Origin: Closterium sp. NIES-65
Lineage: Eukaryota > Streptophyta > Zygnematophyceae > Desmidiales > Closteriaceae
Reading direction: 5' to 3'
Assembly (NCBI GenBank): GCA_948144175.1
Contig: CANXME010002522.1
Span: 124,001 to 188,000 of the forward strand
Length of the DNA: 64,000 bases
Shown: one piece after another, positions 1 through 48,600 of the stretch
Layout of the letters: each line of letters starts with the position of its first letter
Position numbering within the stretch: the stretch's first letter is position 1
Made by a program: the position numbers and the translations under genes
Notes under the pieces: generated by a model
What the model was told of the DNA's origin: nothing
The model's database searches: none
Seen by the model: only the letters and a program-made list of their open reading frames with translations

Positions 1-2916
1 GCGTGGGGGGCGCGGGGGGCGTGGGGAGCGCGGGGGGCGTGGGGGGCATGGAGGGCGCGGGGGGCGTGGGGGGCATGGGGGGAATGGGGGGAAAAGGTAT
101 GGGTGGTATGGGCGGCAGTATTGGAATGGGGGGAATGGGCGGGATGGGTGGTGGTGGTGGTACGGACGAGCACCTTTTCAAGCCCTCCTCTCTCGGCCTC
201 GCCTCTTCCTCCTTCTCCTCCTCCTTCGCCTCCTCCATCTCGTCAGGTTTGACCGGATTCGCCTCTGCTCGCACTCCCATGGATCACTCTTTCTCCTTCG
301 CCTCCTCCTCCCTCTCGTCTCTCTCCTCTCTCCCCGGCTATGGCGCCGCAACTACCACCACTACAGCCCACTTTCCACACGGTGAGAGTTTATGTCCTAG
401 TGTTCTGGTGTCTTTTGAGTCGACTCAAAAGAGTTTATGTCCTAGTGTTCTGGTGTCTTTTGAGTCGACTCAAAAGAGTTTATGTCCTAGTGTTCTGGTG
501 TCGCCTCGTGCTCCCACTTGTCCCTCTCGTGTGCCTTTCCTCTCTTCCCGGCTATGGCGTCTCAAAGAGGCAGCTCACGCCTGTCCGACCCAACTCCCGC
601 CTCCCGCTTCTCTCCCCTCCCCCTTGCTGCGTTTCCCCCTGGTCGTTGCAAACAGGCGATGCAGCCCGTCAAGGCCTTCCTCAAACGCCCACACACCGGC
701 AGCTCGATGACGTCTTGTGATGCAACTTACCTCTGTCCGATCCCTTTTTTCCCGGCCCGTGTCTCCCCTTGTTGTCGCGTCCCCAACAGGCGATGCAGCC
801 CCTGAAGGTCTTCCTCAAACACCCACACACCGGCAGCTCGATGACGTCTTGTAAGCTCGCCCCCCCCCCCGTCCCACGCTCCTCCGCTGCTCCCTTCATC
901 TCCTCTCCGTTTCTTTCACCCAGCGGCTGTTCTCGCTTCTGCCAAACAGTCCCTTCACGTCCTCCGTAATGGCCCAAGGCTCATCTGTTCTCCCCTCCCC
1001 CCACCCCCCCGCCCCCCCCCCCCCCCCCCCCCGCCCTCTTCTCCCCAAACTATTCCCCGTTTCCATTCTACCCCCCGTTCCTGCAGCGATCTGCACTCGC
1101 TTCTCCCTGACAGCCCCTTCACGTCCCCCCTAATGACCAGCACCGCCAGCAGCGCCAGCACCATCACTAGAGACAAAAAGCAAGACCTCTTGCCGCCCGC
1201 TGCTGTGCTCACAGCTGGATCCGCCGCAGAGTGGGACGACGCAGACCGCCCGGAACCCATTCGTTCTTTGTCCTCTTCTGCATCTTCTGCCGCCCTCTCG
1301 AGGTTCTTCAACCCGTCGCTTTCGACCTCTCTTGCCCCTCCCCCTTCCCCTCCTCCGCCTCCACCTCCTCTTGATCACCTTCATATTCAGCATCAAAATC
1401 AGCAGCAGCAGCATCAGTTGCAGCAGCAGCAGATTCTGCCTGCTGCCATCCGTCGTGCATCGTTCGGTGGGGTTTCTACTGCTGCTGCCTCCTCCCTTGC
1501 TCCTGCTGCTCCGTTTTCTGCAAGTGCCTTCCCCCCTGTCGGCTCTATACAGCAGCCAGCAGCAGCAGCAGCAGCAGCAGCAGCAGCAGCAGCAGCAGCA
1601 GCAGCAGCAGCAGCAGCAGCAGCAGCAGCAGCAGCAGCAGCAGCAGCAGCAGCAGCAGCAGCAGCAGCAGCAGCAGCAGCAGCAGCAGCAGCAGCAGCAG
1701 CAGGTCTCAGGCATTGCATCCCTGTGGGGACACACAGTGGGGGCAGAGGCAGCAGCGGGGGACGCAGCGACGCAGATTACTGCTTCTATTGGGGAACTCA
1801 GTATGGGGGATACACAGCAGCAGCAGCAGCAGCAGCAGCAGCAGCCGCGGGAGGAGCATGGGAGGGTGGTGGCGAGCGTGTGGGGTCACACATGCGACTC
1901 CTGCTCTGGTGAGTAGAGCCGCCTGCTCTGGTGAGTAGAGCCGCCTGCTCTGGTGAGTAGAGCCGCCTGCTCTGGTGAGTAGAGCCGCCTGCTCTGGTGA
2001 GTAGAGCCGCCTGCTCTGGTGAGTAGAGCCGCCTGCTCTGGTGAGTAGAGCCGCCTGCTCTGGTGAGTAGAGCCGCCTGCTCTGGTGAGTAGAGCCGCCT
2101 GCTCTGGTGAGTAGAGCCGCCTGCTCTGGTGAGTAGAGCCGCCTGCTCTGGTGAGTAGAGCCGCCTGCTCTGGTGAGTAGAGCCGCCTGCTCTGGTGAGT
2201 AGAGCCGCCTGCTCTGGTGAGTAGAGCCGCCTGCTCTGGTGAGTAGAGCCGCCTGCTCTGGTGAGTAGAGCCGCCTGCTCTGGTGAGTAGAGCCGCCTGC
2301 TCTGGTGAGTAGAGCCGCCTGCTCTGGTGAGTAGAGCCGCCTGCTCTGGTGAGTAGAGCCGCCTGCTCTGGTGAGTAGAGCCGCCTGCTCTGGTGAGTAG
2401 AGCCGCCTGCTCTGGTGAGTAGAGCCGCCTGCTCTGGTGAGTAGAGCCGCCTGCTCTGGTGAGTAGAGCCGCCTGCTCTGGTGAGTAGAGCCGCCTGCTC
2501 TGGTGAGTAGAGCCGCCTGCTCTGGTGAGTAGAGCCGCCTGCTCTGGTGAGTAGAGCCGCCTGCTCTGGTGAGTAGAGCCGCCTGCTCTGGTGAGTAGAG
2601 CCGCCTGCTCTGGTGAGTAGAGCCGCCTGCTCTGGTGAGTAGAGCCGCCTGCTCTGGTGAGTAGAGCCGCCTGCTCTGGTGAGTAGAGCCGCCTGCTCTG
2701 GTAAGTAGAGCCTCCCCTGGCCCCAGCCTATGGTGCGTCACCTTTTGATTCTCCCGCCGTCCCGGCTTTTGTTGTGTCACCTGTTCTTTTCTTACTCCTG
2801 TTTCCCTTCTCTAATATTCCCTCCCCCTGCCTGTCCGGATGCGCCCTCCCCCAGAGGCGGCCTACACCATGCAGCTGGCATGCGGGCACTACCACTGCAG
2901 CAAGTGCGCCCCTCAG
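1..2916 (+). CDS. Low-complexity protein with a partial RING finger, left end outside window
   Basis: A phase-consistent exon chain can be read: 3-381 (Gly/Met-rich, open at the window edge), 656-716 (or its copy 790-850), 1114-1466 (Ser/Pro/Gln-rich), 1711-1908 and 2855-2916. The last two encode CDSC, eleven residues, then CGHYHCSKC. That is the first half of a C3HC4-type RING finger, the fold of E3 ubiquitin ligases. The second CxxC pair is not seen, so later exons are missing from this reading. The CAG tract (1558-1703) falls in an intron in this chain, but an unspliced reading would make it poly-Gln or poly-Ala. The 61-nt exon is present twice, each copy with its own acceptor and donor. 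The gene may continue to about 4.4 kb. Function is inferred from the RING half only, and exon edges are tentative. Confidence 0.4.
386..502. repeat. Three 27-bp direct repeats joined by two palindromes
   Basis: Copies at 386-412, 431-457 and 476-502 form a 45-bp period. Between them lie two perfect palindromes, CTTTTGAGTCGACTCAAAAG, at 412-431 and 457-476. The array sits just inside the intron that begins at 382. Confidence 0.95.
1558..1703 (+). repeat. (CAG)n tract, about 48 units
   Basis: Uninterrupted CAG trinucleotides. A shorter run lies at about 1816-1844. Depending on splicing the long tract is intronic, poly-Gln or poly-Ala. The reverse strand would read poly-Cys or poly-Ala. Confidence 0.97.
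1898..2712 (+). repeat. 22-bp minisatellite, about 36 copies, each holding a 5' splice site
   Basis: Each unit contains GCTCTG followed by GTGAGTAG, which is the exon end and donor of the exon finishing at 1908. The last unit varies to GTAAGTAG. The array therefore multiplies one donor site about 36 times. Confidence 0.95.

Positions 2917-48600: not shown

Follow-up and report, generated by a model that had tools for sequence, protein, structure and literature searches.

A short palindrome, TTTTGAG-N4-CTCAAAA (hereafter P), marks the junctions of local duplications at most of the sites tested in the Closterium sp. NIES-65 genome, and we conclude that the palindrome and the duplication of its neighbouring stretch (X) most likely arise in one event. 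This arrangement suggests a route of DNA insertion with target duplication that has not been described before. The palindromes were examined in a window of 64,000 nucleotides (C2224:124001-188000), whose DNA is taken to be nuclear, and across the assembly from which it comes, which holds 874,075,685 bases in 2,400 contigs.

Palindrome family, centres and spread

Searching the window at up to three mismatches returned 15 P matches (six exact, and three each with one, two and three mismatches), against a mean of 1.96 and a largest value of 7 in 100 shuffles. The positions listed in a first-pass annotation were recovered within a base or two, at about 413, 458, 3362, 3401, 3810, 4478, 30096, 31505, 33015, 35201, 41850, 47361 and 47611, and the half palindrome it had claimed at 13815 was present in an arm-match search (Table 1). 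Two extra three-mismatch matches, at 36633 and 36798, look like chance, and the 50-64 kb part of the window contains no P in the three-mismatch search. When the perfect palindromes of the window are ranked by length, the first six (32, 22, 22, 20, 20 and 20 bp) are all members of this family; on single-strand folding the 20-bp hairpin reaches -5.0 kcal/mol and the 32-bp form -12.9 kcal/mol. A refined 20-bp consensus, CTTTTGAG-N-CG-N-CTCAAAAG, has 14 window matches at up to five mismatches against 3 in the reversed sequence. Column counts over 14 window sites and two sampled ones give a half-site, G-N-CTCAAAAG, with a single variable letter (mostly A, T or C) that is mirrored on the opposite side. 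This single mirrored letter explains the centres TCGA, ACGT and GCGC, with AATT as a further type.

Table 1. Palindromes (P) and duplicated neighbouring stretches (X) in the window
Position	Palindrome	Flanking arrangement
386-502	Two exact P (412-431, 457-476)	X-P-X-P-X, with three identical 27-bp X
3328-3452	P (3361-3380) and partial P (3400-3419)	X (34 bp)-P-truncated X (19 bp)-partial P-X
3796-3841	P, ACGT centre (3809-3828)	X (13 bp)-P-X (13 bp)
4457-4520	Decayed P (4478-4495)	Diverged 16-bp repeats (81%) on either side, p=0.057
13734-13888	Degenerate ACGT-type P, apparent repeated half units	Within diverged 62-bp X (74%)
30042-30157	Decayed P (30096-30113)	Amid 41-bp X copies (90%)
31459-31571	Exact P (31504-31523)	Amid identical 46/47-bp X copies
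32999-33046	P with one mismatch (33014-33033)	Amid identical 14-bp X copies
35201-35218	P-like palindrome, AATT centre	Flanking repeat not detected
41824-41895	P, GCGC centre (41849-41868)	Amid diverged 24-bp X copies (79%)
47354-47385	32-bp perfect palindrome, TCGA core	Adjoins tandem unit, without short flanking repeat
47392-47829	Long P (about 47604-47645)	Between diverged 212- and 184-bp unit copies

Across the whole 874-Mb assembly there are 30,327 P with exact arms and any centre, against 4 for the reversed pattern. The centres TCGA, GCGC and ACGT account for 13,080, 5,851 and 5,047 of these, each against 0 when reversed, so at least 79% of the copies (23,978/30,327) have a self-complementary centre. 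The symmetry of the centres first remarked in the window therefore extends overwhelmingly to the genome, and the four centres claimed there are the same four types that appear among the first 50 genomic copies listed (TCGA 22, ACGT 12, GCGC 10, AATT 2, others 4). A self-complementary centre is found in 46 of these 50, where chance would give 1/16. The remaining four centres (TTGA, TCAA, ACAT and AATC) are each one substitution from a main type, and three of them are CpG changes.

The spread of P is genome-wide but uneven. Exact copies were absent from 29 sampled 10-kb stretches (290 kb), in which about 10 were expected, and the same samples hold 11 decayed copies (up to five mismatches) against 2 in the reversed sequence; four of the 11 have a repeat score (see below) of at least 12. 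Repeats cover at least 75% of the length in 17 of the 29 stretches. The impression given by the samples without exact copies, that P is a local cluster, is ruled out by the genome-wide count. No exact matches to the 24-, 20- and 18-bp forms of P were found among viral contigs, and the 18-mer has four matches in a 257-Gb prokaryote collection, which is about chance; none of the four has flanking repeats by eye. Either collection may omit this genome or its near relatives.

Duplicated flanks and their relation to the palindrome

Dovetail alignment, in which the end of the left flank is compared with the start of the right flank, was scored at 14 window sites, and at 10 of them the score stands out (p<=0.02) from those of 600 positions drawn at random away from arrays. 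The earlier claim of repeats at most of the listed sites is thus borne out; 4478 is borderline (p=0.057), and at 35201, 47361 and 47611 the score is not above that of random positions. At 47611 an alignment of the diverged 212- and 184-bp copies does end at P; this long-flank repeat is not evidence alone, because 9% of random positions reach the same score. Elsewhere in the genome a score of at least 12 is reached by 28 of 34 sites, against 0.7% of 1,112 mismatched flank pairs, and one of at least 10 by 31, against 2.0%, so that direct repeats flank P far above the level of mismatched flanks there as well. The 34 sites comprise 32 of the first 50 genomic copies listed and two TCGA-listed ones; the 18 first-listed copies left out were 14 in tandem arrays and four others. 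TCGA, ACGT, GCGC and the one AATT are all represented among the 28 duplicated sites, and the three tested sites with a non-self-complementary centre all fall below 12. Sites below this score are L053, L062, L066:121, L068, L069 and L071:121, of which L069 reaches 21 with longer flanks. At the 30 of 34 sites scoring at least 11, X is 11-94 bp long (median 40) with an identity of 72-100%, a range in which longer X are missed because the flanks were cut at 110 bp. As a control, unrelated perfect palindromes of at least 12 bp were scored in the same way, and only three of 18 reach 12, two of these lying inside tandem arrays; the reading of P as an ordinary palindrome was rejected accordingly.

Three observations link the palindrome to the duplication. 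Inspected by eye, single sites contain a lone P between two X copies and none further out, and so are not the product of tandem copying of an X-P unit. The more P has decayed, the lower is the identity of X (rho -0.79, permutation p about 0.005-0.006, 10 window sites, with X identities that rest on hand-set coordinates), and the X copies around decayed P are diverged (73-90% identity); X and P thus seem to be of the same age. Finally, locus L059 reads X-P(GCGC)-X-P(ACGT)-X, and since different palindromes stand at the two junctions of the same X, each duplication there brought its own P. Together these argue for one event, and the single P and L059 speak against a pre-existing site that was copied along with X.

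A further repeat begins at the edge of P in three examples, namely L059, window 3361/3400 and L056, in the last of which the 9-nt piece is only loosely like X. A lone stretch resembling the X of 3328-3452 lies at 3540-3583. Arrays of X-P units also occur, with a period of 42 on C10, of 37 and 53 on C6 and of 63 on C18. Separately, eleven GCGC-type P are arrayed at a 42-bp period at G000:C21:1006431-1006868, and seven of ten X-to-X spacings at the window sites are multiples of three, a pattern noted post hoc.

Possible origins of the palindrome

The outer ends of P are ragged. At TCGA sites the extra letters on the left are nested (C, AC, GAC, TGAC, GTGAC, AGGTGAC), and those on the right (G, GTC, GTCA, GTCAC) are pieces of GTCACC. 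Half-units of P stand in direct tandem at L075 and L069 and, in degenerate form, at window 13807; concatenated 24-bp P-like units (GACTCAACTTTTGACTTTTGAGTC) were also seen at L069:1-140. A mirror copy of the flank, matching at 10 or more letters out of 14, adjoins P at two of the 34 sites, compared with 0.2% for mismatched pairs, and by eye these sites are L066:246 and L071:121. The first-pass annotation had proposed that P forms by fold-back or by the joining of identical half-sites, which the ragged ends, tandem half-units and two folded-back flanks support in part. Its further proposal, that P forms afresh at every event, may hold, but a ready-made family would give the same discrete, symmetric types. 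The constant dyad is itself partly built in, because the search pattern requires an intact core.

Our preferred reading, held tentatively and short of an even chance, is that P is the scar of a recurrent insertion with duplication: fill-in of a staggered break, addition of one and the same templated tail at either end, and joining of the tips. Two offset nicks would produce the staggered break, and fill-in of the overhangs would duplicate the X between them. Both ends would then gain the same short tail, the main type being (GGT)GAC-TTTTGAG-TC, copied from one template, and the tails would join through their self-complementary tips to give X-TTTTGAG-NN/NN-CTCAAAA-X. The writer may be an RNA-templated enzyme, telomerase- or Penelope-like, whose template RNA would end ...GACUCAAAAG(UCACC). 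Against this reading stand the uneven spread of P, which a general repair process would predict only with target bias, and the scores below 12 at all three tested sites with a non-self-complementary centre. In its fullest form, which we regard as speculative and rather unlikely, a Closterium enzyme-RNA system would write tails on both break ends and the tips would pair, so that each repair yields a palindrome and a duplication, with tens of thousands of such events feeding tandem duplications of genes and introns.

A close rival, to which we give roughly one part in three of our belief, is that what is inserted as P is a ready-made copy of a very short palindromic mobile element (about 18-34 bp), with the centres as subfamilies. 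Such a micro-element could be moved in trans by a putative endonuclease/integrase or a reverse transcriptase, leaving long, variable target-site duplications. Some 30,000 exact copies with discrete centre types and fixed letters fit a ready-made family too, as do the duplicated targets at 28 of the 34 sites, the differing ages of the copies and the arms themselves, since only six of 26 exact arm matches (TTTTGAG or CTCAAAA) in the window lie outside P, an estimated chance level. The ragged outer ends speak against it, as do duplications that vary from 11 to 94 bp, given that cut-and-paste transposases make target duplications of fixed length; an element so small would also leave little room for two transposase sites. 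The related idea that P represents the ends of longer elements was set aside, as a non-exhaustive look at half-sites in the window and 250 kb of samples found no longer relative.

Improbable, in our judgement, is a third reading in which tandem duplications are made generally by paired-nick repair (patch-mediated or through Pol alpha-primase fill-in) and a nearby P is taken up as templated filler. Small tandem duplications at break ends are documented (PMC8355091), and duplications of this kind without P do occur here, at 48598 with a 12-nt spacer that is not P and at L048:6910-7000, where a tandem duplication of about 38 bp has a TTTCGG spacer; the uneven spread of P is also in keeping with it. 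Filler copied from a neighbour should, however, bring along flanking DNA of the donor and differ in how much of P it includes, yet P has its core in the centre, in part because the core itself was the search pattern. Moreover, among 53 spaced-repeat rows of the window, the five with a palindrome score of at least 8 all belong to the P family; the non-P row at 38264 scores 7.

Still less probable is that P came first and that hairpin-induced slippage or unequal exchange later drove the duplication. The X-P arrays (C10, C6, C18 and window 386-502) are what this reading would produce, and it is likely for the array stage; as the origin it is unlikely, since single sites lack an outer P and the copies of one X at L059 are separated by differing types. 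An assembly or library-linker artefact, suggested by the likeness of a palindrome with a SalI site to a linker, is scarcely credible, as decayed P amid diverged X (73-90%) and four centre types are unexpected of a linker.

Known systems, gene context and significance

MITEs and other non-autonomous DNA transposons share with P inverted-repeat ends, target duplication and high copy number. In P, by contrast, the arms meet at a 4-bp centre, so that terminal inverted repeats around an internal sequence are absent, and in place of a fixed short target duplication X measures 11-94 bp (median 40, 30 sites). An insertion element in the broad sense would have a target duplication on either side of the insert and an empty site with a single copy; P has the duplication at 28 of 34 sites, and a stretch similar to X stands alone at 3540-3583 in the window. 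Among short repeats, yeast mitochondrial GC clusters and double-hairpin elements are palindromic, tens of bp long and present in many copies. GC clusters are short mobile DNA of an organelle (PMC4478555), whereas P has a smaller core, long variable duplications and DNA taken as nuclear.

The telomeric repeats (TTAGGG) that telomerase inserts at double-strand breaks resemble P as short templated sequence placed into breaks, with microhomology at the ends and sometimes a target duplication (PMC2246262). They differ in sequence, TTAGGG against a palindrome, and in that duplication accompanies a minority of loci (4.6% in rodents and 16% in primates) rather than most tested sites. P itself looks unlike a G-rich telomere repeat, a type that may not be the host's. 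The tandem half-units of two loci, L075 and L069, might reflect repeated templated addition at one end. Fill-in by CST-Pol alpha makes small tandem duplications at breaks (PMC8355091), and, like plant patch-mediated repair, resembles P in this respect; both, as far as seen, lack a constant inserted sequence. The arrangement found here, a short filler with a direct copy tens of bp long on each side, is that of such repair events, but a constant filler is not predicted by that family. Penelope-like elements encode a reverse transcriptase related to telomerase and have inverted arrangements and pLTR palindromes of 18 and 38 bp; unlike P they are complete retroelements, for which target duplications either of 8-10 bp or lacking altogether are described (PMC3846280). 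No description of the P family was found in the literature searched, in which subscription journals are mostly uncovered, and the main text of a Closterium copy-number study contains neither "inverted" nor any word beginning "palindrom" (PMC10407611). As far as seen in these sources, no system compared here brings together a constant palindrome of 18 bp, symmetric centres of discrete types and duplications that are long and variable.

From 50 to 64 kb the window consists of sequence repeated elsewhere in the genome, with two reverse-transcriptase frames, RVT_2 and RVT_1; near a reverse-transcriptase frame a 38-bp near-palindrome (TAACTAGGGCCTAGGCTTAGGAGCCTAGGCCCAACTTA) occurs twice, at 59833-59870 and 60873-60910. 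Over positions 1-64000 there are 113 tandem-repeat rows, some overlapping, with near-identical units (for example 22 bp x37, 50 bp x12 and 18 bp x33), and tandem units of about 145-250 bp lie at 47200-47900 and 35900-37050. Frame 36746-37177(-), within the tandem units at 36-37 kb, matches the DMI1 ion channel, and the four best matches of a 576-aa frame at 6545-8275(-) are Closterium proteins (73-95% identity over 38-98% of the query).

The X at 31459-31571 contains ELLNSWGDEIYVK and, directly after it, a likely splice donor; it seems to cover the end of an exon together with the 5' splice site of a gene on the minus strand that resembles ion channels. Searching with this X as query returned six short proteins, of which two have the Castor/Pollux domain PF06241, and two of the four proteins viewed diverge to unrelated residues after YVK, the pattern that an intron would give. 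In a Pfam scan this piece matched only Cyclophil_like, below threshold, and the reading frame is open through P at 31504-31523. An introner element would be an insert spliced as an intron; P measures about 20 bp. With a likely exon end and splice site duplicated, events of this kind could be a source of new exon-intron structure.

Extensive copy number variation has been reported in the genus Closterium (PMC10407611). With a constant palindromic scar, the origin of small duplications in this streptophyte alga could be counted and dated directly from nothing but the sequence, and P would be either the smallest nuclear mobile element known to us or the mark by which a break-repair route records its own action.
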